From Himantopus leucocephalus (taxonomy: Eukaryota; Chordata; Aves; Charadriiformes; Recurvirostridae), in assembly GCA_003993805.1 (NCBI GenBank), contig RSEF01000003.1, forward strand, positions 65,511,749 to 65,575,748: DNA of 64,000 bases, in the 5' to 3' direction. This document shows positions 29,589 through 56,520 of this stretch, in pieces (the stretch's first letter is position 1; each line of letters begins with the position of its first letter). Both the position numbers and the translations under genes were made by a program. Below the pieces are notes generated by a model. That model ran no database searches, was not told the DNA's origin, and saw only the letters and a list, made by a program, of their open reading frames with translations.

Positions 29589-30740
29589 TTACACTCCTCC
29601 AAATACTTCAAGCAACCCTTTTATTGAGCAAACTATGCCTGCAATGCTACAAAGGAAACCCAAAATAAAAACAGAGATATCTGCACATTTCTCTAAGAAG
29701 GATAGTTTTTCCCACTTAAGTTTTAAATGGAAGAGAGAAGGAAGAAGAAAAGTCATAGCAGCACCTGTTACACTGCCTGTTAAACCCATCAACAGGGCAA
29801 AATGTGGTATGAACATGGCCATCAGCAGAGTTAACAGGAGAAATGAGCCTCTTACACCCAGAGCGAATAGTGGAGATCTGTAATTGGAATGGTTGCCTCT
29901 AGAAATACAAGCATACACAATTTCTGTGGCTGCAAAAAAGGGCAAAGGGTAAGAAAGAAGAGCCTTGGTTAAGAGACACAAATTCACTAGGGTTTGAAGA
30001 AATGATGGCAGGTTGTCAGTAATAACTTCCTTTGTCTCTTCACCCCAGGTCAAGAATGCAGTCAGTGCAAAGGTTGTTTTCAAGACACAAGCGAAAAAGT
30101 GAGTCCAATTCAGCATACATCTGAATTCCCCTGGGTTTTTCATGTTACCTTCAAGTGTGGGAAGAAATATTTGCGAAGTGTAACTGAAAATGATCACCCC
30201 TACAGAGACCAAGAAGTCTTCAAACTCAACAGAGAGTCTGAATTTTGCCCAGGACCATTGATGTATTTGTGTGAGACAGTAAGTCATCACTACAAGGATG
30301 ATAATGAAATGGACCAAGGAGCAAAGCTGGCTGAGTTTGGAAACAATTTTGAGAGTCTTGATAAACATGCAAGGCAGCAGTGTAACAAATGCAATTACAG
30401 ACCAAGTTTTCTCAGTCACTGGTACATATGGAAAACTATGTGACAGCAAGTTTCCACTAACAACCAGATACAAAATACATGTCATGATCAGTTCCATCAC
30501 TTGGGTCACATTGACAACTATGCCACCTAGTTTGGGAGACAGCTTTTTGCAGCAGGCATTCGCAATATCTTCATACGTGTCTCTCACTCTTATGAGCTGC
30601 CCATCTTCGTTTTCTTCATACAGGCAAGCGATTAGAATCTTGCCTGTGTAACAGCATAATGCTGCTGCCAAGATAATAAGAAACAGGCCACTGTATCCAC
30701 TGTGGAGAAGAGCATATGGCAATCCTAGGACAAATATTCC
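29589..30740 (-). CDS. Coding exon 2 of the SLC32 (VGAT)-type transporter paralog: main membrane domain
   Basis: This exon encodes residues 104-486 and the stop. It starts with GIFVLGLPYALLHSGY, which completes the helix 1 motif begun in exon 1. By hydrophobicity the remaining helices lie near residues 119-140, 175-200, 214-232, 239-260, 277-296, 314-335, 348-375, 398-420, 422-442 and 454-478, about 11 in all as in VGAT. Family-typical blocks are CCYTGKILIACLYEENEDG (132-150), FSYTSQIFLPTLEGNM (288-303), ETKEVITDNLP (338-348), ALLSYPLPFFAA (363-374) and PHFALLMGLTGS (415-426). Known members load GABA and glycine into synaptic vesicles using the proton gradient; whether this paralog shares that substrate cannot be read from sequence. 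There is no stop or frameshift. Many substitutions fall at positions I expect to be invariant in SLC32A1 orthologs, so I call it a paralog. SLC36 or SLC38 membership is unlikely given the SLC32-specific blocks. Confidence 0.95.
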   Translation of the reverse strand, partial: GIFVLGLPYALLHSGYSGLFLIILAAALCCYTGKILIACLYEENEDGQLIRVRDTYEDIANACCKKLSPKLGGIVVNVTQVMELIMTCILYLVVSGNLLSHSFPYVPVTEKTWSVIAFVTLLPCMFIKTLKIVSKLSQLCSLVHFIIILVVMTYCLTQIHQWSWAKFRLSVEFEDFLVSVGVIIFSYTSQIFLPTLEGNMKNPGEFRCMLNWTHFFACVLKTTFALTAFLTWGEETKEVITDNLPSFLQTLVNLCLLTKALLSYPLPFFAATEIVYACISRGNHSNYRSPLFALGVRGSFLLLTLLMAMFIPHFALLMGLTGSVTGAAMTFLLPSLFHLKLKWEKLSFLEKCADISVFILGFLCSIAGIVCSIKGLLEVFGGV

Positions 30741-30766
30741 CTGAAAAAGAAAAAGGGAAAGAAAAG
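30741..30766 (-). other. Splice acceptor and polypyrimidine tract before exon 2
   Basis: The minus strand shows a nearly uninterrupted run of T and C of about 24 bases ending in TTTTTCAG, then GGAATATTT. The first exon codon is GGA (Gly104). An open frame extends 11 codons upstream into this tract and offers an ATG at 30773, but those residues are intronic. Confidence 0.92.
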
Positions 30767-33700
30767 ATAGCACAAAATCCCTGAGGCAAACTGTTTACTA
30801 GAGGCCACACTCCCAAACCTGCCCTCCATTGAACATTGCTTTCACCTAACTGCGTGATGGAAGTACTGCTACATTCAGCTAAGCAAGTAACAATCATGAG
30901 AAATGTGTTTATTTATGATAAATGAAATTATCAGCAAAAATAACTGCTCCTATCGACATGTGTACGGATAAGCTAGGAAAAAGAGAATGTGACTGAATGA
31001 TAGAGTCAGGTTCCTAATTAATATTTAACGCTGATGTGATTAGAAGCACATTTTAGAAGGTTCATAGGCAGTTATTGAGTCAACATGCATATTAATGAAA
31101 CAGGTTCAATATCAGTAAAATTAAGCAACTGTAGCATCATCTGTACAAGTTTCATTCAAATTAAAAATAGCACTGTAGATAGATCCAGCAATGACAATTG
31201 TCTTCAGTCTATAAAAATTGTTAACAGACCTACAGAAAGAAAATGGCATTAGAGTGACATCAGATTTTGTTTGTGTTTCCTCTGCAGCTTCTGTGTGCCT
31301 CATGCGGCCTTTGCTCTGAAGTCCACTGCTAAAGTGATTCTTCTCACAGCTGAGATTCTAGACTGTGCAAAATTATTTAGGTGTTTGAACATACACATAA
31401 AACATATAGACATACTTTTCTCTAAATGGTTTCTGAAAGGAACAGAATTATACTTTTTTTATCCAGTAAAGAAAAAAACGTGGCATTTTAGTTTCACAGA
31501 ACACTGTGTGTATTTCTTTGTCTTTTTCCTTCTTTCTTGTCTATATTTAAGGACAAACGACACTTTTATGTGGTTTAATTTCCATCAGCACAAAACCAAC
31601 AAAACCCTTGAACAATAGTTATTCATAAAAATATCCAATTTAGGAAAGATGTTTCCGTGACATTTCTCTTTTTATGCTACAAAGCTGAAATTAAGCAATG
31701 CACATTAGTCAAACTGGTCAGGCATTTTTGTTCTTGATGGCTGAAGAAAGGTAGGGAGGAAACAAAATACAGTTAACTAGGTCTACAGAAATTTTTACTT
31801 CAATATTTCTTACAGCACTGATGACATGATGAAATATGAGCATCTGTGCTCATGTTTGCTATTCCGGCTTGACAGAAGGGCTTGATTTGCATCAAACCTA
31901 TCTAAACTCTATTTCTGACCAAACCTGAGCAACCCCATCTGCTCTGCAAAACCCATGGATCGCCGACAGAAACAGGCCTCCTCACAGAAGGGGCGACCCA
32001 CTCTTCTCTCACTTTCTGAGTGAGTAGTGCCACTGACTACCTTCAGGAGCCAAAGCAGAAGAGGTGAGTTTAACGGCCTAAATCTTAATTTCAGACTTTT
32101 CCATCCACAATCGTGAACACGAGGCCATGTGGGGGACAAGAATTTCAGGCATGCTTCTGTCTTCGGTGTTTTCTGTCAACTCCCTCAGGTTTCATACCCA
32201 GCAGACAGTTTCAGTGAGGCCAGTCTAGGAGTCCAGCTCTGCTGGAGCTCATCAAGGAGGTGGGTGCTCGTCTCAACTTTTTAGGGTTCGTACCTAGCCC
32301 CCTCCCTGCTAAGTGATACAAGTACTCCCTGGCCTGATCTATAAGGAGAGCTATGAAGAGAGGCAATTTTTCAAACACTAAATAATCATCAATGTATAAA
32401 AAGTATTCTCCTTTTTCTCCAGCCACAAAATAATATTCCTTTTTGGGCAGATTGTGGGATGAGCATCAACCAGAGAAGAAAAATCAGAAGTCCTTAAATT
32501 AAAGCAGTATTTTTTCTCTAAGTCCATGAACAAAATGGAGTGCCCTTTGTATGAATGAGCAGCATTGCCTGTTTCACCAGGCTTCACTCTAGATGCAGGT
32601 ATCTTCAGCTTTCAGGAGAATTAGAGCTGGAAGAATCATATTAAATACATGCCCTAGTACCTTTTGATTAAAAAGGTCTATGCCTTTATGTACTGAAATA
32701 GAAGCACCTCAGTTATTATTACTGATATAATAATAAAGTTATTGACTAGATACCTTTTTTGGTTGTTTTCAGTGACTTCATTTGCAGCACTGGTTTTGTA
32801 TAAGTCACAGGTGCCATTTCACTTAGGAGCTGGGACGTGCGACTACCTAGCTTGTGGTGCTTCAGTCACCCAAATCTCCCCACTCCAGTGGCTTAGCTCC
32901 ATTCTAATAGAGGTCTCATGACCCAATTAACTTGCAGTGTAATTAGCATTTCTTTTGTACATGAACTTCACAGAAGTGTTCAAAATTCTACCATTTCTGC
33001 CATCTTACAGTCTACTTTCTTAAAAAGACTAGATATCTGGCTGTATGCAGACGGCAGGTAGCACATGTGTAACTAGGTTTTGGTACCATGCCATTTTTAA
33101 TCATGTTTTTGACTGACTGGCAAGTTAGGTAGTTGCCTAAAGAACAACATGTGTTTTCTTTCCTGTGAAAACTATCCTTGGAGAACATTTACATAACAGA
33201 TTGAGTTTGAAAGCATCACAAATAAACCAAGCCTATGTAAAAATCAGGACAACAAAAGCCAGAGTAATCTTCCATATTAACATAAGAACAATGATATTTT
33301 CTTAGTTTCTTGCAGTTTGTAGCAAGCTTATCTCATTTGTTTCATACTCACAGCATTATTATTTTCCCCCTTAACCTGCATTTGGGAGTTCAAAAGATAT
33401 CTGCTGACCCAAAGGGTCACTGTATAATTAAACCTCAGGTAAGTGTCAGCACAGGCCTTACCCACACAATGGCTTCTCCCCTGCTGAATTTAGTCTATTA
33501 ACGTTTATATGACTAGCCTCAACCTCAACCAAAGCATAAGTCTTTCAGAGACATTATCACATTAGACAGACATTTACAGTCTTCCCCCACGGGTGTCTGC
33601 TTTTCCATGCTTAATTGTTAGTTTAATCAGAGCATAACGTAATTCTAACCTCTAACATCTCCTTGTTGTTGCTTATATCAAATAATTTTATTTGGTACCT

Positions 33701-36700
33701 AACACAGACCACAGGATGATAGAGGTGGGGTTTTTTTTGTTGGTGTTGTTTTTTTTAATCTTCTGAATTCATACCTTATTAAACAAACCCAATTTTGCAC
33801 TCTGTATATACTTTCTTAAAATTATGTATCAGTGATTGCCAATTTCAAATCACATACAGTGAGTTTAGAATTTCTAAATTGAAACTTTCTACAGAAACTG
33901 TAAGTTTTACTTTCAGCTGATGTCTTTGACATCTTTTTCTCAGAGTTTGTAAACAATAGCTGGTGAGATTTATGGAAGGGACTTACCGTTTCTGTGTCCT
34001 TCAGCTTTCAGTTAATAATAGAAAGTAAACATTGTGAACATAACTGGTTTTGCAGCTTTTTGGATACAGAGCATGGTTAGTAGAGAGAAACGGGAGAACT
34101 CTGAACATGCCAGCACAGTATGTATGTGCTGAAATGACAGTGCTTTTCCTGCCTTGACAGAAATGGGTTTTTTTTCCATTTAAAAAAGAAAAGTTTCATG
34201 TATCAGCACGTTGCCAAATTTCTATGAAATATCAAAAAATGTTAGTGATGGCCATAAGAGCTCAAAGAAAGAAAGACCCTTTGTCAGACTTCAAAACTCA
34301 TTTTGGATTTGATATTCTATTCTTACCTTTCCAATAGCGATACTTTCTGTTAGGCCCATTTCCTGAACACCTGTTACACCATTTGTCAATGCACATTCGG
34401 TCCAGCCTGGCTCCAGCGCTTGCTCTTACTGAGTCTTCTGATCCTGTGTTCTCATGTCCAAATTATGGCACTGAAAGCCTTAGCTGTGAGGCATCAATTA
34501 AAAATGAGCGGCAAAAGGAACCGTTTCTCAAACTGCCTCCCAGCTCCTACTTTTAGTGCTCTGTTTGGGAAGTGTTCCTGTCTGAATGGTTTTGTTTTCA
34601 ACTGTTCCAGTGCTAAGTCAATGTTAGCTCTAAATATGCTGTTTTAAGGTATCTGCTTACAGAAGAGAATAGCACAGGGAAAAAACACTCACACAGTTGG
34701 ATACAAGGGAGATGGAGTTTTTGAAACAGTCCTCTAACATGGCTCATCTTGAGCGTTGTGTTATTTGCCATCTCTCCATCCACCCTGTGTAAGGAGGGAC
34801 CCCGAGCTTGCCCAGTGGGCTGCATCTTCCCTTGTCTCCCAAGACGTTTGCAAGACGTGGGTATTTTCACCCTAGACTGAGGGTGGAAGTGGACTGTTCG
34901 TTGTCAATGAGTGAATACACGTGCCTGGGTGGAGGTCCTTGTCTGGAGTAGACTTAGCCATAGGCAGCTGGGTCTAGAAAGGATTAAGGGCTGACCTGGT
35001 GATCAGCCTTCGAAGAAATAGCAACGACAAGAGCGGAAAGAGCATGTAAAGAAAGGTCAGTCTCAGCTAGAAGCTATTTATTAGCCTTGTCAGAATACCC
35101 CCAAGCGGAAGCAACAGTGTATGACAGCTACCACCAGATATTACCAATCTATATCTACAACACAAAACAAGTAGATCAGGATTTCCAAATTACAACTGCA
35201 CATTAAAATATTTTTTGCATTTGTCAATGGTTTGACTGTAATATTTGAACTACATGGGAGTGTTTCCCACACCAGCAAGGCTGGCTGTTTTTTTTAAAAT
35301 ACTAGATACCTGGATTAGTGTAGAATGCAAAAAATGGTTCTTCTGCTATCATACCACTATTTGACACTACTTCATCTCAGGGGAAGCACCTCCCCAAGAA
35401 ATAAAATGTGTTTAGAAAAGTACATAAATGAGCACAGTCAAGCACTCTGAGAAAATATCAAAATTCCTTAATATTCAGTTTAAGACTTTTTAGTCCCAGG
35501 TAAAATGCTTCACTTCACTGGCTGTTTTAACCGGAAATATGTCACTTTGAAAAATAAAGCAGATAGAAAGGCAATTAAAAAGTAAAGAAGATAAAATCAT
35601 GGTCAGAGTTGAGACATGCCAAAAGACAATGAAATAAAGCAGAGTAAAAAACAGTGCTAAAAAAAAAAAGAGAGAAAAAAAGATTTCACCTTACAACTTA
35701 ATCAGATGGAAAAATAAATTAAGAAATTACGAAGAATTTAACTGAAAATTACTCAGTTAGTACAGTTCTCCTACATGCAGAGTACATCCTAACATGCCAG
35801 ACTGCTGAATTAGCTCTGACTGCCTTTCTCACCATCTGTAGCTACTCCACTGGAACGGTTCATTTAAGCCTAACTATTTTCCCAACTATGTATTTGATTC
35901 TCTGCATGAACATGTGTTGGGCGTAGAAACTATACAGGAAATCCTCCTTCATGCATCTTCTTGGAAGAGTAGGGAAATAAATTCAAGAACCCTGCTTTTC
36001 AGTGCACTTCCACAAAATACTTAATTATGTTGTTTAGCATTTGTTGTCATTTAAAATAAATAATTTTCCTGAACTGATGCAAGCCTGTGTTGATGTGGTA
36101 TTTATATGAAGATTCCACTTTATTAGCACTAATTTAAAAAATAGAGCAAATCCCTTAATCTCATGCCATGATAACAAAGCTACTTGCTTGTTGACCTTTT
36201 TCCTTTCTCAGCCACCACTGTGATCAGTTGTATCAGATGTGATAAGATGTATTCTATTGTTGCACTAATTTTTAAATCAGAATGTTGTGTATTAATGTGT
36301 CAAAATTCCTTTTGAAAGTCTAAATATATTATTTATCTTTCACTGCCTATATTACAATCTCATCAAAGAATTATATCAAGTGTGTTTAACAAGGACTGTA
36401 AGGACTCTTTCTCCAAAACTGTAATGATTGACACTAATTATATTCCCAACTTTTTATTATGTATCAATTAAAGCGTGTATTAAGAATTACATTCTTTTTC
36501 TCAGAATTGTTGCCAGGTTTCACTAGTCAGAATTTAACTGGCTTTTTAAATATTGGAATGATATCCACAAGCTCCTGAAAATTCCACATGTAATAGCATT
36601 CAAATAAGAGTATTATCAGGTCAGATGTATCTTTTGTTACGTCTCCCAAGCACAACCTTGCTGGGCATTCTGCTTTCAAAATATTAACAAGATACATTTT

Positions 36701-36791
36701 AACATCTGTTTTAAATAGTAACTGTAGTTATCTAATAGTTAATTGTCCAAGTCTAAGCTTGAAAAAAATAGGCACCTCAATTTATAACTAA

Positions 36792-36811
36792 GACCTATCT
36801 TAAGATAGGTC
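36792..36811. repeat. Perfect 20-bp palindrome in the intron
   Basis: GACCTATCTTAAGATAGGTC equals its own reverse complement. The symmetry stops at both ends (A versus G). Confidence 0.9.
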
Positions 36812-39800
36812 GTTAGCAGAGCTGGGACAAATTTCCTTTCAGAGATGCCTGTTTCTTTTGCTGGGCAAGAGAATATGTACACAATAGAGTGTAGACACAC
36901 AGCTCAGAAACTCTGAGAGTTACCTTTTAAGCGTCCTATGCAGAATAGCATGATGCTCATCCTGAAAAATTACAAAACGGCCTACTGTTCTCCTGAGCAC
37001 ATCCTCCTGATTCTCTACAGAGACTACTTACACACAGTTGCATCTTTTTTCAGAGTTAAGAACAATGTTAGAACCTCCCTCTACTGCTAATGTAGGAAAT
37101 CAGTGTAGCAAAATTCAGTGAGAGGTCTCAGAGAAGAGGAAGGTGATCTTACATTAGAAAATCTCTAAGTTGATTTTTTGCACTCTCACATCCACATACT
37201 CAACAGCACTGGTGTGTGTGTCCTACTGGCTAGGCCAGGATCACTTTGTGTGCACCAAGGAGGACAAGGGATGCTGGCGGTCAAGTGCTCACTATCTCTG
37301 CTGTTCATCTTGAGCAGTGATGACAGATTTTGGATTTGCCTTCTATATTTTTCTGGAATGGATAAAGTTTGGTATCTTTTGCCTCATTATTTTGTCTCGT
37401 CACCCATGAATATTAGGCAAAAATCCTGAATTTCACAGTACTGTTGCTTTCCTTATCTGCATGTTTTGTAGATACTTTCTTCTACTTCATGCCCTTAACA
37501 CTTATCTATAGGTCAGTTTTTCTACCTCTCCCTTTGAAGGAAATCACATATATGGGGCTCTGTAGCAGTTAATGCATACTTTCCCCTTTGATTTTGTTCT
37601 GCTGTTTCTCCTGGTGCTTTTAGACAAGTAAACACAGTCACATATATAGACACATACTTCCATTCATACTTAATTTATATCACAATTAGTATTTCTGTTT
37701 CAGATTTTTACACTAAACCTAGCCTTTTTTTCCTAATTCCTAAAAATTGTTTTCTTACCGTCCTAATCCCTGCGAGATGCATTTTTTCATGGTGTCTTTG
37801 GGTGCCTGTATCTCTTTGTTACACTTCATAAATGATAATTTAATTTACAATGATTACTCTCACCCTCCCTTTCTCAAATTTGCTATTTTTAAAAAAAATT
37901 TAATTGATACATTCACTTCACACCTGAAGTAGGAGGAGTTTTAACACATAGGCGTACTATTTCTTGATTATGAGATGTGGTTTCTGGACATCTCATAAAT
38001 TCTTGTTAAACATCTTCCAAATTGCTTTCACAATTTGCTGTCTGTATTTATTGTTCCTAAACAATTATCTCTCATAATTTTTTCTACGTTTGTAAAATTC
38101 ACTCTTTTGAAGTACCGAGTATATATATTACTGTCCTCTGTTTTCAAATAATGAATTTAATTAGATCCACTGATCTGTTCATCTTTATTCAACATAATGA
38201 GGCTCAAAATAGAATTACCTCATGTTAGGTTCAATACCTTTTGTGTTAGATAATTATCATCTATCATTTTTAGAAACGTTAATGATGTTTTACTACAGAC
38301 TGCATACAACCTCCTGCATAGGTCTTTAAAAATGAAGTCACCAAGAACAATACAAATTTTCTTTCCAGACAATAGCTCTAACACAGATAATAATCTCTCT
38401 AACATAGAGTGCCACACTCACTTCTTTTGCCTACTCTTTTTTGTAAATGTATTTTACCTAATTATTTTTAAATTCAGTTGCATAAATCATCCCATCATGT
38501 ATTTGCGATATCAGTTATATCCTATTTCTTCTCAGCAGTAAGAATTTCCAGTTCCCTAGCTGGCTACCCAGACTTCTGGCACTGCTCTACAGACACCAGG
38601 AAAAGAATTCATCTGCTTTCCCACTTGCTTCACAGTTTGTTCACAGCTCAGCTAAGTTTGAATTAAAAAATACTACAAGCTGTTCTGTGGAAATCTTCAA
38701 ATATTGTCCACGGCTTGTATGACCTTAGCAGCAGATCCAGCTCCTTAATGCCAGTGAAAAATCTTCCTTTAACTTCAGGGATGGCTGAATTAGACCTCAG
38801 CAATCTTGTTTTTCCTGGTTTTTCTTATTCTTTCTCTCTGCCACTGCCAGCCTGTTTTAGCTGCAGGGAGGAAAGTGGCTAAGGTTCTTATTCTGTGATT
38901 AATGCCTGCAATCACCTTATATACCAAGAGAAACTTTAGAAGTGTTGTTCTGTCAATCCTTCACGTTCAATAAGCTGATGATAAGGCAGATAGACTGCTC
39001 AGGAGATGCTGTGATAAGATAAGCAAGTAAGGAAGCCGCATGGTCTGCACTGCAAAATGTATGTGTTCATTTGACTGACAGAAGCCACTGATTCTGTTCT
39101 CCTTTTAGTGACCAGATTAGTCGTAAGAATCTCCTAAAGATTAAGAGAGGCAACAGAGGGAAGAAAACGTCTCAACAAAAAAGGAATCGCTGCAATTGAG
39201 TGTGACAGCTGATCCCATTGGCTTTGCTATTGGTTTAAATATTTGTTCTAAAACTGAAATAATATGCTTGATGCTTAATTCTGCATGGTTTGATGGAAAA
39301 TGTTAGTTTGCATAAATTCAGAGTTGTCTGCAAGAATGCACTGAATCACACAAAGTAATTCTCTCAAGCAAATTACCTTTTAAGAAAATATATTATTTTA
39401 CTTGGTCCCAAAGGAGAAAGAATGCTTTGGTAAAAGCATGAGGGCTTTTATTATATGTTACATAGCGGAGAGGAAAAAGATGAAAAAAGTAAGGCAGTCA
39501 AATCTAGAACAAACATTACTTTGAAAGTCAGCAGTGGTGAGCAACATGGACTAACTGTCTGCTTACTTATTTCTCACATTATAGGTCATCACGGATTCTC
39601 AGGTTTTTACCTGAAGGCAGGCAAGTACTCAAAACATCCAGTACAGCAACATGTGAGTGAGTTTCCATGAAAATGTGGTCAAAAGTGCTTCAGGGGAGGT
39701 GGAGAGGGGACTTTGGGAGACTAGAAGCAAAGCGAAGCAGTAGGGAGCCAAATAACTTTATTTGAGTGTGCACTGACATAACAAAAAGGAGAGTTTAAGT

Positions 39801-41002
39801 GCATAGAAAGTTCAAACTCAGGCTGGGAGAAAGCACTTGGCTTGTTAGGAGTTTTTCTTGAATGCTGCCTGCATGGGACAAGCCACAGTTCCTGTTACAT
39901 TTAACAAGTGAGGCTGAAGAAGAAATGGAAAAAACCAAACCCATTACCACAAAGAACTTTGCACTGGAACAAACCGTATGCACCTCTGAGAGGTGAAGAG
40001 GAAGCCAGGTTACATCTTCTGGGAGCTGGGTTGTATTTTCTGAAAGCTGGCATAGGATTTGTCATGACTGCATGCGGAATAAAAGGTGACTGAGTCCCCC
40101 CCCGGCTAATATTATCCTGTTCTTTCCTCAGCACAGACCCAACCACCAATTTTAGGTGGACTCTTACTCAGGCTATAACGACTCCCAGAGCTCGGCGTAT
40201 AACGGGGAAATCTGTCTTATAGCACTGCCTGGAGAGAATACAGTTAATAGTCTGGATGAAGGACGTAAATAGTGGTATACCATTATTTTTGGTCTCTAGG
40301 AATCAGTAAACTCATATGGAGTATCATAGTACATTCTTCTGGAATACGTGAGAAAAGATGCTGTCTTATAATTAGGCTGGGTATAGACAACAAATGTCTA
40401 CTGCTCTTCCTCTCTTAACCTCAGTTAAACTTCAGTGGCAGCCCTGGAGGCTCCAACCTTTAGGATAAAAGAAGCAGCAACTGATTTTACTGCTGATATT
40501 TCATTGTGCACAGTTACAGACAAAGTTGAGGTTGCAAATGAATTCCCGTAATGGAGGTGTCTCTCTCCTATAAGGACATAAAAGATCACATCATTCTTAA
40601 AACTCAACAAAGTAGAATAATTCCCCTAATTTCAAGTAGATTAGACAAACATTCCCAAATGTTTATAATTAATAATAAAGAGAAAAACTAAATATCAGAA
40701 AATAAACATGCCTGAGTTTTCTGGCATGTCATGAGAGCTCTGCATAAAAGCAAAGTTATTTAAGTTCTCCTTTAAAAAAAAAATAATTTTGAATATAGTT
40801 ATGCATTGTGAAACCAGGAATATGGCACACAAAATAGATGCCGAAGATGTCTTTTTAAGGTTTCTAGATGTAAAACACTTAAGGTATTACTACTTGAGGA
40901 GGTATTTCTCATTCTGTTTGTACAGACTGTGACACAGTGGACCTCTACTGTCCCATGAACAAAAGTACTGGAGTTATAAAGTAAGTCACACTCCTTTTCT
41001 GT

Positions 41003-41057
41003 GTTTTTTTATTATTTTTATTTTCCTCTTTTTTTTTTTTAATTTTTTTTTTTTTGT
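41003..41057 (+). repeat. T-rich low-complexity tract in the intron
   Basis: Runs of 7 to 13 T are broken by ATTA and CCTC. On the gene strand this is an A-rich tract, perhaps the remnant of a poly(A) tail, but no retrocopy is recognised beside it. Confidence 0.8.
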
Positions 41058-43909: not shown

Positions 43910-43943
43910 TCTTGGGAGGAATGTTATCTTGGGAGGAGTTATA
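43910..43943 (+). repeat. Short imperfect tandem duplication
   Basis: TCTTGGGAGGAATGTTA is followed at once by TCTTGGGAGGAGTTATA, two copies of a 17-bp unit with a few differences. Confidence 0.8.
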
Positions 43944-44865
43944 TGTCTAAATATGGTTTATTAAAACAAATTAACTGAGGTTACACATGTCATAAGTTTA
44001 AGAATAGGGACAGAAAGAATACTTTTAAGAAGAATATTTTCCTCCAGTGATAGCTGGTCAGTGGCATGAGCCATACTGAAGCACAAGTGTACAAATGATC
44101 TCAGCCACAGAAGGCTGGTAGATAATTATAGTAGGTAGTTTGGGCTTTGTTTTGAAAGGTAACTGTCAAACATAATATCACAACAATAAAGTAAGCAGAT
44201 ACAGAAATTCAAAATTGCCTAATAATAGTGTTCTAAATACCATGTGACCTGCCGTGAATTAAAACAGGAGAAATTATACCATCTGTTTTCATTCAACTTG
44301 TTAAAAATGCTCTCAGGGATTGATGAGACCAGAAAGCATGGTAGATTATTTTGATTTTAGTGTAGTGGGAAAGTAGATCAGCTATTCCCTTCACCTGAGG
44401 GAGCCAGAGATCCTTGTTCTGCAACAAGTCACGGTGCATTGGGTTCTCTCATGGAATAAAGTGATCATTGCTTTCAAGCAACTGACAGTTACTTGATCCT
44501 GTTTGGTAACATTTACTATTTCAAAAGGTATAATTTTCATAACGCTACTATCCATTTATCTTTGATATCATGGTTCTGTCATTCTTGTTCCTGACCATCT
44601 GGATTTTTAAGACGGAATGCCCATTTTAATGGCAGAATATTACACATTTGTCTTATCACATTTGTCTGCTGATTTATCTTGTGGTCAGCCCCTACAATGC
44701 ACCTCAATAGCAAGAAGAATCCATTATATAAAAAAAAAGAGAGGAAATTGAATCAAATGTCAAGCTGATTTATCACAGGCCACATTTAAACAATCATTGT
44801 TTTGTAAAGAGTTTCTGTAAAATAGAAAACATTTTGAGTCTTACTTTCAAAATTCTTCTAATTGT

Positions 44866-44980
44866 TGGAGCACCTGGAAATCCTTGATTGGAATCCCATT
44901 GTGCAGGGCACTGTGCAAACAAAGTACAAAAAGATGCTCTCTTCTCCAAAGAATTCAAAATCTACGGGTAGGGTAGCAGG
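44866..44980 (+). repeat. Ancient interspersed repeat copy 1
   Basis: The segment contains GGAATCCCATTGTGCAGGGC, ACTGTGCAAACAAAGTAC and AAAAAGATGCTC...CCAAAGAATTCAAAATCTA. It shares its layout with 60903-60962 and with an old repeat type I recall from turtles and birds (ACAAACACAGAACAAAAAGA...CCAAAGAGCTTACAATCTAA). No family name is claimed. Confidence 0.45.
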
Positions 44981-46187
44981 AAACAAACACAGGCAGAAAG
45001 GGGACTCAGGAAAACCATGAGTCAATAAAGAGCTGTGAGTCAAGAGCGTAAATAGTGGTTTCTATGTAGCTTATAACTGTGAAATTTTCAGCAAAAGGAC
45101 ATTTCTGAGATGAACAGAAGAGTGCAAATAAGTATCTTCATATAAGTTCATAGGAATGCTTGTTTAAATATTTAACAAATTGACAATGGTACTTGTAACT
45201 GGAAGAACCGAGATCAGAGTCAATAGATGCAGAAAGGTAAATGGTAGATTGCTAAAGAAAAGGTGAGTAGCTTACATTTGATTTGATGGTTGAAGAGGTG
45301 TTTGCAAGACCTGCTGGACACACATGGTATGGAACCGCATCAGCTTTCCAGGTGGGTGTGCATGGGGTGAGCTTGGCAAGGTCAGGGAAGAGTGTACTAC
45401 TGTGACCCAGATGGGGCATTATTAGTGCTCAGATAAGAGTTTTAGCCTTGTGGATTGGTAAATCAGACTATGTATTAGTGATGTTTTACAATACAAATAA
45501 GCAGAAGCTGAACATAGGCTGAGCGTGAGGATTTAGAAAGAGGCCTGACTGAAAGGTGATGCCATATGATAGGCCTGCATGGCATGAAGGACAAAGACAT
45601 TCACAGGTGGTGAAGAAAGGTTGGTGTGGGCAGACACTAGATGGAAGGCAAGGAACTCTGTGTAGCTGCTTCTACTACTGACTGCTGAACAGACAGACCA
45701 ATATTTTTTGTGGGCAGCAGAGGGATCTATATGAGATGTGAACTTGAACTGGCCCAGGAAACACACTCTGGTGTCGTTACACACTCCCACAGGCAGTGAA
45801 GGATGTGGTGTCTATCAGCAGTGTCTCTAGCAGCCCTGAGAGCCTGAGTCTGATGGAGGTGATGACCTCAGGGACGAAGGCAGGAGGCAGAGCTTCAGGA
45901 GAGATCACCAGCATTTGTCGTGTGCCTGGTTATGGACAGCAGTGTAGAGCAGAGGAAGCTGGTCATGCCTACGTATTAATTCACATACCACTTTTCCTTA
46001 TGAAAAATTCTTGCAATGAAAAATACAAATAGAATGGTGTATCATGTGTGTGCTTGTAGTTATCTACCTACCAATGCAAAAGCTTTTTTTAGGCATTAAC
46101 ACCCCCAGAGCGGGCCATCTCCTGGGTGACTTGAAGGTTTCCTAATGATGAAATGAAAGAAAAAGAGGTCTGGGAGGCAGAGGCTCC

Positions 46188-46221
46188 CAGGTTTCTGAAC
46201 AGGTTTCTGTTCAGGTTTCTG
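46188..46221 (+). repeat. 12-bp tandem repeat, three copies
   Basis: CAGGTTTCTG occurs exactly at 46188, 46200 and 46212, separated by the dinucleotides AA and TT, giving a strict 12-bp period. Confidence 0.9.
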
Positions 46222-46912
46222 AAGTGTTACTTACATGGACTATTTATTTTATATATGTCATGGGAGAAATGTAAACTGACACACCCTTTTTGTAAATATA
46301 TGTAAATGTGCATGTAAATCCCACCTCTGTCACTTGGCAGGTTGTCTATTAAGCCCTAGCAATATCGTTGATAGTAGCTGGCCTTTGAATAACGGCAGTG
46401 TTTAAAGCTCTTAGGTGGAGATGCGCTTTCATTTCATTCATGTAACTGTACTTAAGCTGACTGAGATAGAAAATAGCAGAAATATTGATGTCCCCACTAA
46501 GGGTGTCTGTTGGCAAGCTGAATTTGACAGTGTGCAAAGCAACTAGCAAATTCCAATTAAGGCTAAGGTTCATGTTATTACTGGCTAGAAAGCATTGCCG
46601 TAAAGAGAAGAGTTGAGCTGATCTCTCCCAGCTCCTCAACTGAACTCCACACTGAGACCAAGGTGCCCGACCCCTGCTCTGACTCCCTCAGACCTGCAGA
46701 GCAGGAGGAGAAGGGCAGGAGGAAGCAAACAGGAGGGCCCCCAGCATGAGGCCAGGTTTATCTTTGACCACAAAGCTTTGTTTATAGCCTTTACTGGCAA
46801 ATGAGTTAGAAAGGAGTTTGAAAATCAGTGCCCAAGTACTCAGCTGTGTCTGTGCCCTTTTCCTCTTCTCTGTCCTCAAACACACAGTGGATAGTGACAA
46901 AACTGCTGTTTT

Positions 46913-48424
46913 AGAATCATAGAATCATAGAATTGTTTAGGTTGAAACGGACCTTAAGATCACTGAGTTCCAACCCCCCTGCCATGGGACACCTCCCACT
47001 AGACCAGGTTGCTCAAAGCCCCATCCAGCCTGGCCTTGAACACCTCTAGGGATGGGGCATCCACAGCTTCTCTGGGCAACCTGTTCCAGCGCCTCACCAC
47101 CCTCATAGTGAAAAATTTCCTCCTGATATCTAATCTAAATCTACCCTCTTCTATTTTGAAGCTATTACTTCTTATCCTATCACTACATGCCCTTGCAAAA
47201 AGTCCCTCTCCTGGCTTCTTGTAGGCCCCCTTCAGATACTGGAAGTCTGCTATAAGGTGTCCCCAGAGTCTTCTCTTCTCCAGGCTGAACAACCTCAACT
47301 CTCTCAGACTGTCCTCACAGCAGAGGGGCTCCAGCCCCCTGGTCATCCTTGTGGCCCTCCTCTGGACTTGCTCCAACAGGTCCATGTCCTTTTTGGGCTG
47401 AGGACTCCGACACTGGATGCAGTACTCCAGGTAGGGTCTCACCAGAGAGGAGTAGAGGGGCAGAATCCCCTCCCTTGACTTGCTGGCCATGTTGCTTTTG
47501 ATGAAGCCCAGGATACAGTTGGCTTTCGGGGCTACGAGTGCACATTGCTGGGTCATGTTGAGCTTCTTATCCACCAACACCCCCAAGTCCTTCTCCTCAG
47601 GGCTGCTCTCAATCTATTCTCTGCCCAGCCTGTATTTGTGCTTGACCCTGCCATGACCCAGGTGCGGGACCTTGCACTTGGCCTTGTTGAACCTCATGAG
47701 GTTTGGACAAGCCCACCTCTCAAGTCCCTCCAGGTCCCTCTGGATGGCATCCCTTCCCTCCAGTGTGTCAACTGTGCCACACTGCTTGGTGTCATTGGCA
47801 AACTTGCTGAGGGTGCACTCAATCCCACTGTTCATGTCACTGACAAAGATGTTAAACAGCACCGGTCCCAGTACTGACCCCTGAGGAACACCACTCATCA
47901 CTGGTTTCCACTTGGACATCGAGACGTTGACCACAACTCTTTGAGTACTACCATCCAGCCAGTTCCTTATCCACCAACTGGTCCATCCATCAAATCCATG
48001 TCTCTCCAGTTTAAAGACAAGGATGTCGTGTGGGACAGTGTCAAATGCTTTGCATAAGGCCAGGTAGATGACATCTGTTGCTCTCCCTTGTCCACCAATG
48101 CTGTAACACCATCATAGAAGGCCACCAAATTTTTCAGGCATGACTTGCCCTTGCTGACGCCATGTTGACTGTCACCAATCACCTCCTTATTTTCTATGTG
48201 CCTTAGCAGAGTTTCCAGGAGGATCTGCTCCATGATCTTGCTGGGCACAGAGGTGAGACTGACCGGCCTGTAGTTCCCCAGGTCTTCCTTTTTTCTCTTT
48301 TTGAAAATGGGGGTTACATTTCCCCTTTTCAAGTCAGTGGGAACTTCACCAGACTGCCACAACTTTTCAAATACAATGGAAAGTGGCTTAGCAACTTCAT
48401 CTGCCAGTTCCCTCAGGACACTCA
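46913..48424 (-). mobile_element. 5'-truncated CR1 LINE with decayed reverse transcriptase, sense to the host gene
   Basis: The 3' end carries repeated ATGATTCT octamers (plus-strand agaatcat at 46913 and 46921), the hallmark CR1 tail. Reading on the minus strand, the ORF2 C-terminal half is recognisable in three pieces. 48362-48090 holds [20 protein letters not shown]. 47934-47614 holds [17 protein letters not shown] and the active-site region FANDTK. 47586-46999 is the C-terminal part, with [13 protein letters not shown] motifs replaced by [10 protein letters not shown] and ending [13 protein letters not shown]. Breaks seen: a one-base frameshift near 48090, a Trp-to-stop change at 47614-47616, and loss of the first catalytic Asp (FADD-type motif reads FAND). 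The 5' part of the element is missing, as is usual for CR1. It is a dead copy of moderate age. Confidence 0.93.
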
Positions 48425-48428
48425 GTTT

Positions 48429-49011
48429 TGCACTGGAATGCAGCAGTTAGGATAAGCACCAGCAAGTATGCGCTACTGCTCGTATCGGGTGTCCATGCCC
48501 AGGTGCTGGCACAGGTAGGGGGGGCTGCAGGGTGCCCTCTGTGAGGAGCCCGGTGCTGGACACAGCCAGTTCCACGCTGGCTCCAATTGACCCACTGCAG
48601 GGCACAGCTCAGCCCTCCAGCCAAGGTGGTGGCGCCTCAGGGAAAACCTGTGTAATGAAGGGCCAAAAATGCCACAAAGAGTAGGAAGGGGACCATAGGA
48701 GTGAAGGACTGAAGTTGAGCATGGGAAAGAGGGGAGGAAGGGTGTTACTTTAATGTTTGTCTTTTTGTTTCCCAATACCAGATGCAGTAATCAAACACAC
48801 ACATATATATTACTTAGAAATAAAGTTAATTTTCCCCAAGTTGAGTCTGTTTTGTCCACAACTGTAACTGACAAGTGATCTCCCTGTCTTTTTCTTGACC
48901 CATGAACTTTCTCATTCCTGTTCTATTTGCTCCCCCCTGCCCAGCTGAGGGGGAGGACTGAATGAGCAGCTGAGTGGGAGCGTGGCTACTAGCCAAGGCT
49001 AACCCGCCACA
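48429..49011 (+). mobile_element. Solo or partial avian ERV LTR, antisense to the host gene
   Basis: The segment resembles an LTR family I recognise from many bird genomes. It contains AATAAA (48819-48824) followed by a U5-like part with CCCCAAGTTGAGTCTGTTTT and a right end reading AACCCGCCACA. The left edge is uncertain: it lies within about 15 bases of where CR1 homology stops (48424), and no clear target duplication was found. No internal retroviral genes flank it. Confidence 0.7.
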
Positions 49012-49656
49012 CTACTGTGTGCTTACTTGCTAGTTCCTTTGTCCTTTTACATGCACAAAATTTCAACTAATATCAGCTTCATGTAGGAGGACTATAGCTT
49101 CACACCTATAAATTAACTATTCTGAAAGATTGATAGTAGTAGATTTTCCAAATGAAAAGATTATCAAACTTATACAACTAGCGAATAATCAACAAGAAGT
49201 CTCCACTTAACAAGAAACAGGCACTTGTAAATTCTGCAAGACTTCCCTGACCAGACTGGGAGAAACTAGACATCAACCCCAGGATAAGTATACTACGCTA
49301 CTGTTACTAAGAATAGCCTGCAAGATAATATAATGAATTTGTAATTTAGATGCTGAAATATACAGATTTCAAAAGTACTAGCCAAGAAGAGTTTCAACTA
49401 CAGTTGTTGGAAATGATAGGTAATTGACATTGCTAAAAATCAAGTGTCAAATAAATGAAATTTATTGAAATGTAAGGTTATAATTTGAGGTTCTGAACAG
49501 AATTATTCAGATTTCTTTAAACACATGTTGAGGTTTAGCCCCAGCCGGCAACTAGGACCATGCAGCCATTCATTCACTCCTGCCTGTTCCCCCCATAAGA
49601 TAGTTAGAAAAGGGAGAAAAAGGGGAAAACCCCCTCATGGGTTGAGATAAAGATAG

Positions 49657-49662
49657 TTTAAT
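49657..49662 (-). terminator. ATTAAA poly(A) signal of the intronic solo LTR
   Basis: ATTAAA reads on the minus strand, followed by a CTTTATCTCAACCC segment typical of the R/U5 edge of this LTR family. It lies in the sense direction of the host gene and could in principle end transcripts within the intron. Confidence 0.5.
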
Positions 49663-49808
49663 AGAACTGTAACGGAAGAAAAGATAACAATAATAATAAT
49701 GGTAAAAGAACATGCAAAAGGAGTGATGCAATACAACTGCTCGCCACCCAATGATCGGTTGCTCAGCCTGAGCAGCGATTGCGGATTCCTGCCCCCGGCC
49801 GACCCCCA

Positions 49809-49816
49809 TTTATATA
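49809..49816 (-). promoter_or_regulatory. TATA box of the intronic solo LTR
   Basis: TATATAAA reads on the minus strand inside the LTR, about 150 bases before the LTR's own ATTAAA, as expected for an LTR promoter. Whether it is active is unknown. Confidence 0.55.
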
Positions 49817-50043
49817 CTGAGCATGACATCTATGGTATGCAATATTCCTTTGGCCAGCTTGTCCTGTGTATGCCACCTCTCAGCTTCTCTGGGAAGCTGA
49901 AAAAGTCCTTGACTTAATATAAGCATTACTTAGCAACAACTAAAACAATATGTGTTATCAATATTATTCTCATACTAAATCCAAACCACAGCAGCTCCTA
50001 GGAAGAAAATTAACTATATCCTAGCTGAAACCAGGGCAGCACA

Positions 50044-53000
50044 GCAGCCTTTCTGGCTACTGTTATCAAAAGGATGTAATATTAGACAGCTATAAAGTAA
50101 AGCTCAGGTAAAAATCAGTTAAAGGTATTGGTTAAGAACAAATATTTTAAACTATATCTATCCTACACCCAGCTTAATTGAGACATTTAGATTTAAGGCT
50201 GAGGCTGCATGTGAAATTCCGTATTTGTGTTATTATACTTCAGAATGTCTTCCTCTCATCTACGTGAGATAATTATCTCATATGATAATTAGCTTTAAAC
50301 ACATCAACATCATAAATTGTAAACCATTGTATATCATTCATAGTCAAACTATTGAGGCTATTAGAGTCATTTATGAAGGAGACAGAGAGAGACACCTCCT
50401 GTAACTCTTTTGCAACTCATCTATTAGGAAATGCAATTTTGGGCCCATGGTGTGGGCAAGCGTAATCTAAGGACTGCTTTAAGTTCTAAAGATTTTTAAT
50501 GTGTCATGTTAATGTCTAGAAGGCTGCGAGAATCGCCATACTTTGACCCATTACTTGTGTAACCCATGTACTTGTTTCTGGGATGCTTCAAGAGCATGGT
50601 GCTTTCTGAACAAATTGTCCATATGTTGGAGACTGTCTGTATGTCCAGGGAATAATTTGTGGAGTAGTTATGTTATATCACATCTCCTACTTGCTGGCAA
50701 ATCTGACACAGAGGGGCTATGGAAAACTGATTTGCCACTCCTAACATTTCCATAATAGTTACAGTAGAATATGCTGATGTAAATCCATTCAATGCTCCCT
50801 CCATCTGTTCATTGCCCAGATGATGTGACAAACAACATAAAATGCAAAAGCTGCAAAACAGCAACTTAAATCCCATGAGAAGAATCTGAATATTTCTTCC
50901 TGGAACAAAAAAGAACTTTAGATGACCCACCTCTTTATGTTTAGAGGTTCTGGCTTCATAATGTTTTTAGTGTTTGCAGCTGACCAAGGGAAAAGTAGAC
51001 TGATAAAGTGCATTCTCTAATGAGATCTATGGGAATGGCAGTTAGTTAACTCAAAATCAGTCCACTGCACAGTGCTTACATGTCAAATAAAGAGATTTCT
51101 GTGAAGTAGACATAATTTTGTTGTTGTAGGATAACACAGTTTTTTTAAAAAGCTTTTGTGACAAAAAGTAGTGTTGGGAATAGAAAGAATATATATCCTG
51201 TATGCAGCCTTCTCTGTGCTGTATGAATAAGTGCACAAAACAAATCTACTGCAGGGTCTGAGCTGAAATAAAAGGCTATATGAATTAGTGACATATGTCC
51301 GGAATCTTTTTTTCCCTCTAGAGAAAATCCAAAGAGAAAACCAGGGTATAAGCATTAGTTACAGAGTCTTCTTCCCAAAAATATATCTTTTATCAATTGC
51401 AATGCATAACGGTGACTTTCTATCATAGGAAAAACAGATCTGAGTTATATATGGCTCTCACCAGGCTCTGTGCTTTTTTGGATCTCCATTTGGGGCTATA
51501 TGGGTTTCTGGTTGCAAATCTATGAAAAATAAATTTGGCCAGTAGTGCAGATGCATTTCAGCTAAAACCATATTAAATGGCATTTTTATATGGACCACAA
51601 TAGCCCTACAGTTTTGGAATTTTACTTTGCACTGTCAATTTTTGACTAGCTCCATTTGGAAACTTGAATTACTTGCTGGTCCTAGGTTAGATATTAGCAC
51701 CAGGCATCTCCGTTTAATTCTCAGTATCACCTCTTGATATGAGATGCAGCAGTTTGTTTCCCTCAGACATCTATAATTTAGTTCAGAGTATGACTTTAGC
51801 TTCAATGCATAATTCAAGGAAGTTACTGCTCTGGGCACCAGAAAGGATTGACCCTTGTTCTCAAGTCTGGAAAATAAATACTTAAGATCAAGTACTGCAG
51901 TTAAGATCTAAGTGCTTATTTAGTTAAATGTGACTAAATTATTTAAGGTTGAGGGTGAGAAGTTTTGTATTGTGGTACGTCGAATGACCTGATGGTGAAA
52001 TCATTTAGCTTTCTAAGCACACAAACATGTATGTATTTATATTTAGAAAATGCTTAAATACAGTGTCAGTAAAGCTTAATGGGAGGGGTGTTTAGGCACT
52101 TTAAAAAGATATTTGCCTTTATATCTTTAGGGGCATGTCTGCTAATTCTGTTTCTCAGCATTACTGTGTTTACTATTTAAGTCTTTGGGAGTTGTTGATA
52201 TTCATTAAGCACTCTAAAGATTCAGTCTGTATTACGGAGATGAAGGCAGGTAACTCAGAGGAAACATCATAGAAAAATAAATATTAACTGTGAGATATTC
52301 TCATGTGAATCTTTTAGAGTTACATAAGTAAAAATGAGCCAAATTGGAACCTAATATGGAAATGTATCTATAATGGCACACCGTGAAGGATATACAGATA
52401 TACACTTTCATTTTTAAAAATGGTGATTATTGAAGTGTTGAGTCTTTTCTAAACTAATGTACAATATACAGAATATAAATATAACGAGCATATTTATGAT
52501 CACTGCTGTAATATTTATTAACTTATTGACACAATTTAAAATAATTATTAATAACACTAATCACATTATTGTTATTCCTAGAAGCACTCATGATAGACAA
52601 GCACCCTATTGTTCCTAACCAGGGAACAAGAAAATTGCCAAAAGTATTTCTAATTTTTGTACAGCCTAATCTCTTCAAAAGACAGGAAACAAAAGATGGC
52701 TACAGTAGGTATCAGATGCATTGAATCAAATGGCACATTCAGTATGCTTTGACACACCATGTTTTACCAAACGTCCAGGGAAGATTTGTGCACTTATATT
52801 ACACTGTATTTTAAAGATTGTACAAGCATGATAATACTGAAAGCACTTTGGAGCTGCCTGGTGGCTGACCTTTGTGCACTGTTAAACTTGTTTGTAGTCC
52901 TGAGACCCACGTGGAGATAGACTCACAATGGTGTAAATTACATTTAAGATGAGAAGAACATTATTTCACTTCTTGCCATTATTTCACTCCTTCCCTTTCT

Positions 53001-55653
53001 GTCTCTTGGTTTTCCTCTATTCTCTGTCGTCTTGTCCCCCTTGGTGATACTATAGAGTGAGTGCCTTTTTCTTTTGCTTTGGCTTTTTCTTTCTTGGACA
53101 AACATTCTCCATACTGCTTGCAACAATCCTCCTACATGTGGCTGGCAAATAAATAGACTTTATTGTCCTTTAGTTCTGCTGTGAAATGCTGTACGGTTAG
53201 AATTTAACTACCTTCTTCCTTGTGACTGTTGCTTTGCTTATCTATCCAGTACTACTGTACAAGTCAGTACAAAATTTTGGGGGGCTTTTACTGCTGTATA
53301 CAAACAAATGTGACTTGCATCACTCTGCTAGATGATGCTGTTCATTTTCCCCTTTGAATTAACTCAGCTTTATGGTCTCTGTCCTTACCTAGATTAACTG
53401 GATACAGGTTTTCATTTGCCTGTGTGGTGTTGGAATATGAAGCATGTTTCCCTGGAAACTTTAAATGTCTGAAGCAATCATTTACACATACAATATCATC
53501 ACCAAAAGTGCACCTTTTTTCAGTTGAAGTTAAAAACAAAATAAAAATCTTTACCTGTTTGTTTGAAAATATTTGCATTTAAAACACTGTAAGAAAACCC
53601 TTCTATTTCATTTCAGACACCAAAGATTTACTCATTGCTACAATAAATCTGGATTGCGAAACGATTTCACTTTTAGACTAATTGTATTCACCGGAATAAC
53701 TGCTTAGAACACTTCAGAATTCTGCTGAAATGTTTACCTCTAATTGCCATGCAAAACATTTCTGCCCTCTCCTCTGGGTAGGGCAAAAACAACTGTCATT
53801 TTAGGATAGATTGTCTGCACCAGTCTAGAACGTTTGGATTGTTTTAATCAGTCTGTTCACAACTCTGACTTTCGCTTGAAAGCTATTCATAGAAATTTCT
53901 TCGAGGCGTTATTTTTTACTGACAGATGCCCGTTCAATATTCTCTCCTCCTCTCCTGCCTTTCCCCTTCGCTTTCTCTGCTCTCTACGCTTGTTCCTAAA
54001 CCAAATGCCAAAGTATTGGGAAACAGGAAAAATACACACGTGTAGATTCACATACGTGCTCACATGTGCAGTTTTACAATGTGTCGTTAGGACACTTCAG
54101 TTGTACTACTAATGAAACTGCATCTCCCAGGCTCTGCCATCCTCAGCTTGCCTTAGGAGAAAAGCTCAATACAGCTGTAGCTAACTGCTCTTTTAATGCT
54201 GTTTTCTAAAATATTTAACCAAATGAGATCCAATAGCAGTATGCAACACTCAACATGCTGAGAGTTTTGACTAAGACCATTGTTACTGATCTGGTTGGAT
54301 AATTTAGCTTAAATTTGTCCTGTTTTTAAATAGGCAACTGCATGCTTGAGAGTATTTTTAGACTGTGTTGTCAGTCTATTTTTTAACTGGAAGCTATAAT
54401 ATTAATAATTAAAAGTAATTGTGTACATAACAACATTCAGGAATTTTTAGGCACTTTGATGTATTTACAGAGGCATTATTACTTTTGTTTTTCGGAAAGG
54501 AAAACAATGGGTGAGAGAGAAGGTGACTTGCCAAAAGGTCATACAGCAAATATTGACAAAAATTGACTTCCAGAATGAAATCTTGGCTTTGGTGAAACCA
54601 AAGGCAAAACTCACAGAGACAACAATGGGCTCTTGTCCCAGACTCCTGTCCTGACTAGGTGCTGCGGAGGGAGACTGAAGATAAAATGTGTTACTAGAAT
54701 GTAGCTGGGGTATTTTAGGACTTCACGCTTTTATTCACAGCTGAACACTTTCCGAGTATGGTATGTTACTCTGCCCTAGATGTTATTGCATTGCCTCTCA
54801 TATGGTGGTGCTCATGTTTGAAAATACAGGGGGGTTAGAAATATGTCCTTTTTCTCCTCCTTTTCAGAGCCGAGGGAAGAACGGGATACATAAGCAAATG
54901 TTCATCAGCATCACGATACCCTTGTGTGACACTGGAAGGATTAATTTTCTATAACTAAAGTGCCATGAAAAGTTACCAGGACTAGATGTGTCTGTGGATA
55001 CTGCTTTCTTCTTACCATGTCAGACAGCAAGTTAGTGGTAATGATAGAATTATGTAAGGAAATGAATCACGATAAGTGAGAAAAAGAATCTGAAACATTT
55101 AACGCTAAATTTAAAGATTCAGAAAGATATTTAAACTCGACACAGAATGCTGGGACCAAATGCTTTCAGTATTTTCAACCTGACTATTTTTTTAACATTG
55201 GCAAGTATTATACTTCTTGTGTTTCATGCTCCAATTTATATCTAGTCTAACCTACATGTCAGTAAATTTATGTCTGCGTCAGTCTGGCTCTTACTATCTT
55301 CTTCTTATTAGATGTTCACCTCACATTTCTATCAAAGATCTCTGTCACTGCATTCAAATATACTTATTAAAGATAATGTCTGCACTTCCAAAACTGGTGC
55401 AATCACCAGCTTTTCATTTTCACCTAGCTTAAATATTTTTTAAGCTTTATCTAACGTATCTATCTTTTTTTTCCCTTTGGAACTTTATTTTTTCAGAGTG
55501 CTAATCTTGTGCAGAAAGGTTGAAATACGTTAGTAATAAGTTCATAGAAACCTTTTAGAATATTGCAAAATGATGGTATGGTTAAGTAAAGTAAAGCAGG
55601 GTAAGTGATGACCAGGTTTTTCAAATGATGATTGTAATGAGTGGCAAGTAAAA
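50044..55653. other. Inner intron, 5' part, no recognised exon
   Basis: AT-rich DNA without a supported coding segment. Only the old SINE-like piece at 54495 was recognised. Confidence 0.6.
54495..54635 (+). repeat. Ancient SINE-like piece next to a hairpin-repeat arm
   Basis: GGTGACTTGCCAAAAGGTCA and TACAGCAAAT resemble the GTGACTTGCCCAAGGTCACACAGC block seen in MIR-like and related old SINEs. It is followed by TGAAATCTTGGCTTTGGTGA and GGCAAAACTC, an arm of the sauropsid hairpin repeats. It lies in the intron about 1 kb from exon 1. Confidence 0.4.
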
Positions 55654-55662
55654 GGTTACCTG
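55654..55662 (-). other. Splice donor of coding exon 1
   Basis: On the minus strand the sequence is CAG followed by GTAACC, a good match to the U2-type donor at the exon edge and +1 to +3. Cutting here leaves the conserved family residues AIQ at the exon end and keeps phase 0. Confidence 0.9.
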
Positions 55663-55968
55663 AATGGCATTTGTTACATTCCATCCTGCTTCCCAGCTGG
55701 TGATCAATTTGACCTGGGCACTTGGCAGGGGAGCTGGGGACTTGTATTCTGAGTCCTGGTGGCAAACATCAAGCTCAAAGTTCAGGGGTCCATCTAGCTC
55801 CTCTCTCTCCTCACTGTGAGCTCCGTTCAGTTCATCTCTTCTAGCAAAATTCACATACTCTTCATCAATGTCTACGCAGCTGTCCCATCTCACCATTCCC
55901 AAAAAGAGGGATGGTGTTTCCCTAAAGCAGTTGAAAAGAGATGAAAAAGTCTGCTTCAGGTGAGACAT
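55660..55968 (-). CDS. Coding exon 1 of an SLC32 (VGAT)-type vesicular amino acid transporter paralog
   Basis: This exon encodes residues 1-103 of the joined 486-residue protein. It gives the cytosolic N-terminus and the start of membrane helix 1. Residues 31-47 contain a DEEYVNFARRDEL block that resembles the acidic DEE..FA..D.L segment in the N-terminus of VGAT. Residues 44-76 are strongly acidic. Residues 92-103 (WEAGWNVTNAIQ) are the SLC32 signature that opens helix 1. Reading on past the codon for Q103 gives an unrelated tail and a stop, because the exon ends there: CAG is followed by the donor GTAACC. The exon is 309 bases, so the intron is phase 0. The ATG at 55968 is the first in this frame; its context is weak (AGG before, TCT after), and no upstream in-frame stop was found close by, so an earlier start or a 5' noncoding exon is possible. 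The N-terminus is shorter than that of mammalian VGAT and lacks its Gly-rich stretch. Family assignment is secure; function is inferred. Confidence 0.9.
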
Positions 55969-56502: not shown

Positions 56503-56520
56503 AACAACAACAACAACAAA
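56503..56520 (+). repeat. (ACA)n microsatellite
   Basis: Five to six CAA/ACA units in a row. It lies about 550 bases upstream of coding exon 1 in the direction of the gene. Confidence 0.85.

Follow-up and report, generated by a model that had tools for sequence, protein, structure and literature searches.

The genomic window analysed here, a 64,000-nucleotide stretch of contig RSEF01000003.1 from the stilt Himantopus leucocephalus, carries on its minus strand a two-exon gene for a transporter of the SLC32 family, a family that includes SLC32A1 (VGAT/VIAAT), the vesicular inhibitory amino acid transporter that fills synaptic vesicles with GABA and glycine. The two exons join in phase 0 after residue 103 to give an intact product of 486 residues with no internal stop. 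Coding exon 1 (55660..55968; residues 1-103) runs for 309 bases from an ATG start to a GT donor (CAG/GTAACC) and encodes the cytosolic N-terminus together with the first half of the first transmembrane helix (TM1), the bird protein P0001 aligning with it from its first residue. It is followed by a single GT-AG intron of ~24.9 kb (30741..55659), recognised by its splice signals and a Q/G junction, and by coding exon 2 (29589..30740; residues 104-486 and the stop), which was delimited by its open reading frame, splice site and tblastn matches; this begins at the acceptor TTTTTCAG/GGA, encodes the rest of TM1 through to TM11, and terminates in TAA. In tblastn searches all nine bird and turtle protein queries covered at least 30743-29598, with P0001 matching from its own residue 1 at 55968 and in a second piece from 30743 to 29592. 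Such protein alignments run a few residues past the junction, and the precise splice positions were therefore fixed by the GT-AG signals together with the phase. Exons, coordinates, splice points, phase and length were all as given in a preliminary description of this DNA made from the sequence, and its remark that the frame is free of stops and frameshifts and has good splice sites is borne out by 486 open codons and canonical GT-AG borders. The gene as observed cannot be the product of chance.

Pfam finds one domain in the product, Aa_trans (PF01490, E 1.8e-82, residues 89-476), and an AlphaFold2 model of P0001, which is 93% identical to the window protein, has the 11-helix APC/LeuT-type fold of amino acid transporters with broken TM1 and TM6 helices, in keeping with the SLC32 fold proposed earlier. 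Both the superfamily and the fold are common to SLC36A1 (PAT1) and SLC38A9. PAT1 is far more distant, however, scoring 50 bits in a single-sequence search as against 575 bits (55% identity) for P0099, a bird SLC32A1 from Chloroceryle (671 member sequences). The window protein therefore sits with SLC32 and not with SLC36 or SLC38, as judged from bit scores and from a tree that contains SLC32 rows only, with invertebrate VIAATs as outgroup.

To place the gene within its family, we searched 5.8 billion proteins with its product (7993 candidates scored; 654 matches at E of at most 0.001, the best 120 listed). The nearest matches were bird proteins, mostly named ‘vesicular inhibitory amino acid transporter-like’, and not SLC32A1; identity to the bird ‘VIAAT-like’ rows listed was 83-97%. 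Lower in the list stood turtles, lizards, snakes, alligator, caecilians, two frogs (which we take to be early-branching), coelacanth, sturgeon, gar, bowfin, sharks, rays and teleosts. Six of the bird proteins listed (P0001, P0002, P0005, P0006, P0010 and P0011, from ostrich, rhea, emu, pigeon, fairywren and a parrot) also run to 486 residues, which bears in part on the question, raised in the preliminary description, of random stops in related birds, although a protein database cannot display broken copies. N-termini were mispredicted or absent in P0050, P0065, P0067, P0081 and P0085.

A second search, with P0099 as query (801 matches, best 120 listed), returned abundant mammalian SLC32A1 proteins, with those of gorilla, bat and rat at 91-92% identity (gorilla 92%) and with P0160 named as member 1 of family 32. 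Conventional SLC32A1 is present in other birds, as P0099 and as P0145 of Bubo, and over the membrane core the window protein is only 61.0% identical to P0099. Also among the matches listed were two hagfish copies, two kinds of copy across three lamprey species, and VIAATs of amphioxus, Ciona, acorn worm, tick and horseshoe crab. Core identity to the VIAATs of amphioxus, horseshoe crab and Ciona, outgroup members of the same family, was 48-52% for the window protein, whereas bird SLC32A1 was nearer to them, at 57-60%.

A careful IQ-TREE analysis (71 rows, LG+C20+F+G4, rooted on acorn worm, tick and horseshoe crab) placed the window gene among birds inside a 41-row clade with support of 100/100, which spans sharks, ray-finned fish, coelacanth, frogs, reptiles and birds and which we refer to as the paralogue. 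Within this clade cartilaginous fish are the first to branch, and ray-finned fish are sister to lobe-finned fish plus tetrapods (96/79). Gnathostome SLC32A1 forms a separate clade (99/98), which the cyclostome copies join (93/93); these are vertebrate SLC32 proteins with SLC32A1-like motifs that group with SLC32A1 and not with the paralogue. The preliminary description's view that the gene is a separate paralogue and not the SLC32A1 orthologue is upheld by this topology, together with the low identity to bird SLC32A1. In a quick second tree of 74 rows, from which P0160, P0145, P0121, P0101, P0094 and P0084 were dropped and to which nine rows including zebrafish were added, the 47 rows of the paralogue made up one side of a branch, as did the 16 of SLC32A1. 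One row, P0078, we take to be Callorhinchus from its accession range, its species being absent from the output.

Since the tree holds two gnathostome clades, with cartilaginous fish inside that of the paralogue, the duplication predates the split between sharks and bony vertebrates and is older than the jawed vertebrates. It probably originated in the early vertebrate genome duplications. Approximately unbiased (AU) tests did not reject trees in which gnathostome SLC32A1 and the paralogue were held together (p 0.305) or in which either cyclostome kind was joined to the paralogue (p 0.111 and 0.092), and because these three tests rejected nothing, either the first or the second round of genome duplication (1R or 2R) may be the source. 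The SLC32A1 side has duplicates of its own: hagfish and lampreys carry two kinds of copy, and in the 71-row tree SLC32A1 appears duplicated in teleosts, in two groups (P0098, P0102, P0095 and P0142 versus P0119, P0113 and P0135).

The structure of the genes is consistent with descent from one ancestor. The translations of the SLC32A1-like P0148 and P0151 run from intron-like sequence directly into Q/GMFVLG, where the window gene has Q/GIFVLG; as the Q/G junction is identical in all three, both genes probably descend from one gene that bore this intron, an indirect argument drawn from translations. Besides the exon junction as seen in translations, SLC32A1 and the window gene have in common the family domain, an EExxxFA motif and 14 conserved charged residues. 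They differ in the length of the N-terminus, with 130 residues before the junction in gorilla (from the alignment) versus 103 in the window.

The distribution of the paralogue was explored with a profile of 18 deep paralogues, which gave 492 matches, of which the best 120 were listed. Every one of the 106 rows ranked before the first SLC32A1 row was nearer to the window protein than to SLC32A1, and from that row on the same held for only one of 14, so that this list separates the two genes almost cleanly. Among the matches listed, Danio rerio, carp relatives, Astyanax, eels, herrings, bonytongues, salmon and pike are some of the carriers named. Six fish have entries for both genes (Astyanax mexicanus, Denticeps clupeoides, Sardina pilchardus, Anguilla anguilla, Conger conger and Dallia pectoralis). 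No mammal, spiny-rayed fish or neobatrachian frog was named among the 106 paralogue rows (4 of the 106 being without a name) in these best 120 of 492 matches. These data suggest that mammals later lost the paralogue, as neobatrachian frogs and spiny-rayed fish also seem to have done. The preliminary description had thought a second SLC32 gene in a bird to be notable. The second gene is indeed there; it is not special to birds, and, because it is common to sharks, zebrafish, coelacanth, turtles and lizards, the surprise lies in how old it is and in the apparent lack of a mammalian copy.

Conservation within the paralogue points to selection on the protein. Over the paralogue rows 155 of 469 columns are at least 95% conserved, and the window protein matches all 136 columns that reach this level in 37 non-bird paralogues, so that the protein is strongly constrained, in agreement with the earlier suggestion of selection rather than decay. 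Departures from near-invariant SLC32A1 positions, also proposed before, were found at 75 of the 254 columns whose conservation across 19 SLC32A1 rows reaches at least 95%.

The product carries a predicted acidic dileucine-like (AP-2) sorting motif, EEYVNFA, at codons 36-42 (55843..55863, minus strand), which matches E39EAVGFA45 of mammalian VGAT, a motif whose function is treated in PMC5770824 and PMC8752090. EExxxFA is kept in 36 of the 39 paralogue rows that hold the segment (44 rows in all), and in 17/17 SLC32A1, 5/5 cyclostome and 4/6 invertebrate rows that do so.

We defined a fixed difference as a column conserved to at least 95% in SLC32A1 and to 90% in the paralogue with different residues, and found 18 of these. 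At these sites SLC32A1 keeps the invertebrate majority residue in 12 cases and the paralogue in 2 (ties not resolved). They include M to I at residue 105 in the TM1 break (codons 104-109, GIFVLG; 30723..30740, minus strand, located on the P0001 model), G to S in TM1b, three changes in TM7, F to C in TM8, V to E in a loop helix between TM2 and TM3, and five changes in TM6, which in the same model comprises TM6a, a break at 290-292 and TM6b (codons 276-301; 30147..30224, minus strand). The charge class is altered at ten positions when histidine is scored as a class of its own. At the end of TM3, residue 204, encoded by exon 2, is a histidine in 42 of 44 paralogues and an asparagine in 18 of 19 SLC32A1 rows, and is a candidate for an altered pH response. 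Together, the fixed and charge changes could alter cargo or coupling.

Within the intron lies a reverse transcriptase fragment (46999-48446, minus strand, in three frames), which we take to be CR1-like. RVT_1 was found in two of its three pieces, with an E-value of 3.9e-15 in the best and with one just below the curated cut-off. Six-frame scans at E of at most 0.01, run without a positive control of their own, found no Pfam domain, and so no neighbouring gene, in the flanks (1-29588 and 55700-64000), though Pfam does detect the two intron reverse transcriptase pieces when given as separate frames. No RNA family or tRNA was found in the window, nor any match with up to 3 mismatches to a neuronal-silencer (NRSE) pattern (0 matches, 0.03 expected). 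AATAAA near the stop is uninformative, there being 145 sites across the window; this exceeds the 90.6 expected from shuffles over 1-64000. Two protein models contain additional sequence that matches the window. In the eagle model P0003, residues 101-140 of an N-terminal extension match 48419-48297, and the extension is probably a mispredicted fusion; the tawny owl model P0008 (656 aa) passes over the stop with which exon 2 all but closes, gaining ~190 residues whose pieces match 12079-13220 and 17509-17580 on the minus strand in several frames, perhaps because non-coding 3' exons were read as coding. In 16 listed bird rows the gene lies on contigs of 105-148 Mb, and on shorter ones in others (e.g. 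Haliaeetus, 47 Mb). Such lengths would presumably suit a macrochromosome sharing ancestry with human 6q, itself a paralogon partner of 20q, the arm that carries SLC32A1; we offer this as a lead and not as a test.

Automatic annotation already names the gene ‘VIAAT-like’. No official gene name was found, and ‘SLC32A2’ or SLC32A1-like may serve provisionally; nor did we find one treating the paralogue among the open-access papers listed, subscription journals being mostly outside this scope, so that absence in print is not implied. The ‘SLC32A2’ of PMC2563692 looks like a slip for SLC32A1, a review gives zebrafish one slc32a1 (PMC5515482), and a killifish ‘slc32a1b’ (PMC11320354) and a lamprey ‘SLC32A1b’ (PMC10555824) are mentioned. 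The latter two more likely represent duplicates of SLC32A1 itself, in teleosts and in cyclostomes, because rows from Fundulus, another killifish, and from lamprey fall on that side in our tree. The paralogue is thus an old, conserved and apparently unstudied member of the SLC32 family that mammals seemingly lost.

Taken together, we put at about 0.72 the probability that this is a functional second SLC32 gene, arisen by duplication before the jawed vertebrates, which encodes a vesicular inhibitory amino acid carrier and was later lost in mammals. On this account, an ancestral gene with two exons, encoding a vesicular inhibitory amino acid transporter, would have duplicated before the jawed-vertebrate radiation, and the paralogue would function as a vesicular carrier for small inhibitory amino acids, perhaps with a changed cargo. 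AP-2 would retrieve the predicted carrier into synaptic-like vesicles, where, by homology, the proton and voltage gradient would drive the loading of a small inhibitory amino acid. GABA and glycine would be the first candidates, given that the protein keeps the charged residues in the membrane that it has in common with SLC32A1. As guesses, the fixed changes in TM1, TM6, TM7 and TM8 and the charge changes may shift cargo, affinity or coupling, and expression may be restricted or complementary to that of SLC32A1.

Several observations weigh against parts of this account. The paralogue evolves faster than SLC32A1: in seven comparable pairs of species, for which the match was by group but in some cases not by species, its core differences are 1.6 to ~6 times those of SLC32A1, with core identities of 68.9% versus 92.6% between bird and shark, 60.2% versus 93.4% between bird and Astyanax, and 66.8% versus 79.6% in the mildest comparison, Denticeps versus chimaera. 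The sorting motif is broken as scored in three of the 39 paralogue rows (P0081, P0086 and P0100), with the break in P0081 looking like a mispredicted N-terminus. The tree flags long branches (two frogs, Polypterus, amphioxus, acorn worm and tick) and odd composition in three rows, the proposed mammalian loss comes from lists of predicted proteins (best 120 matches) and not from genome searches, and the vesicular transport role and location are predictions from homology. Furthermore, the fixed differences are not concentrated to a significant degree in TM1, TM3, TM6 and TM8 (9/18 versus 49/135, p 0.30), nor is their enrichment significant in the TM1 break plus TM6 (6/18 versus 19/135, p 0.08) or in TM6 (p 0.06). 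Because they are not significantly clustered in substrate-site helices, a cargo shift is only a guess.

The strongest competitor, which we consider possible though rather unlikely, also accepts a functional ancient SLC32 paralogue and has it act on another amino acid away from inhibitory synapses, for example in vesicles of endocrine or epithelial cells or in a different acidic compartment. The divergence from SLC32A1 at 75/254 conserved columns, the ten changes of charge class (histidine as a class), the apparent loss in mammals, which retain SLC32A1, and, weakly, the zero matches to the NRSE pattern would all suit such a role, whereas retention of the AP-2 sorting motif and of the common charged core speaks for the vesicular inhibitory carrier. 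A relic under relaxed selection heading to loss, or a recent or bird-specific duplicate, is highly improbable: faster evolution and several apparent losses might suggest one, yet orthologues occur in sharks, rays, sturgeon, gar, coelacanth and zebrafish, and the window protein keeps 136/136 deeply conserved residues and a length found in six other birds. Recent duplication is rejected on the strength of the orthologues from sharks to zebrafish, and a pseudogene on that of the 486 open codons, the canonical splice sites and the same conserved residues. Least credible of all is that the gene is this bird's own SLC32A1, diverged or mis-assembled, as the automatic names might imply, when a bird SLC32A1 is known that is 92% identical to gorilla, the window core is so much less similar to it, and six fish species carry the two genes; orthology is ruled out by the well-supported separation of the two clades (100/100 and 99/98).

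The preferred reading, an ancient second vesicular carrier, suggests a broader if tentative proposal, with the odds somewhat against it: that jawed vertebrates began with two vesicular inhibitory amino acid carriers, of which mammals kept one, and that the second had its own cargo or coupling. It may, for example, prefer glycine or beta-alanine, or serve a specific cell class. Were this true, the filling of inhibitory vesicles in birds, reptiles, sharks and zebrafish would be of a different kind from what textbooks describe for mammals, and knocking out SLC32A1 in these animals would be an incomplete test. In non-mammals, the markers, antibodies and knock-outs used for inhibitory neurons tend to presume a single carrier. 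With a conserved second one that mammals seem to have lost, the question of whether GABA or glycine is released without VGAT could be put to a direct test in zebrafish, chicken or turtle.

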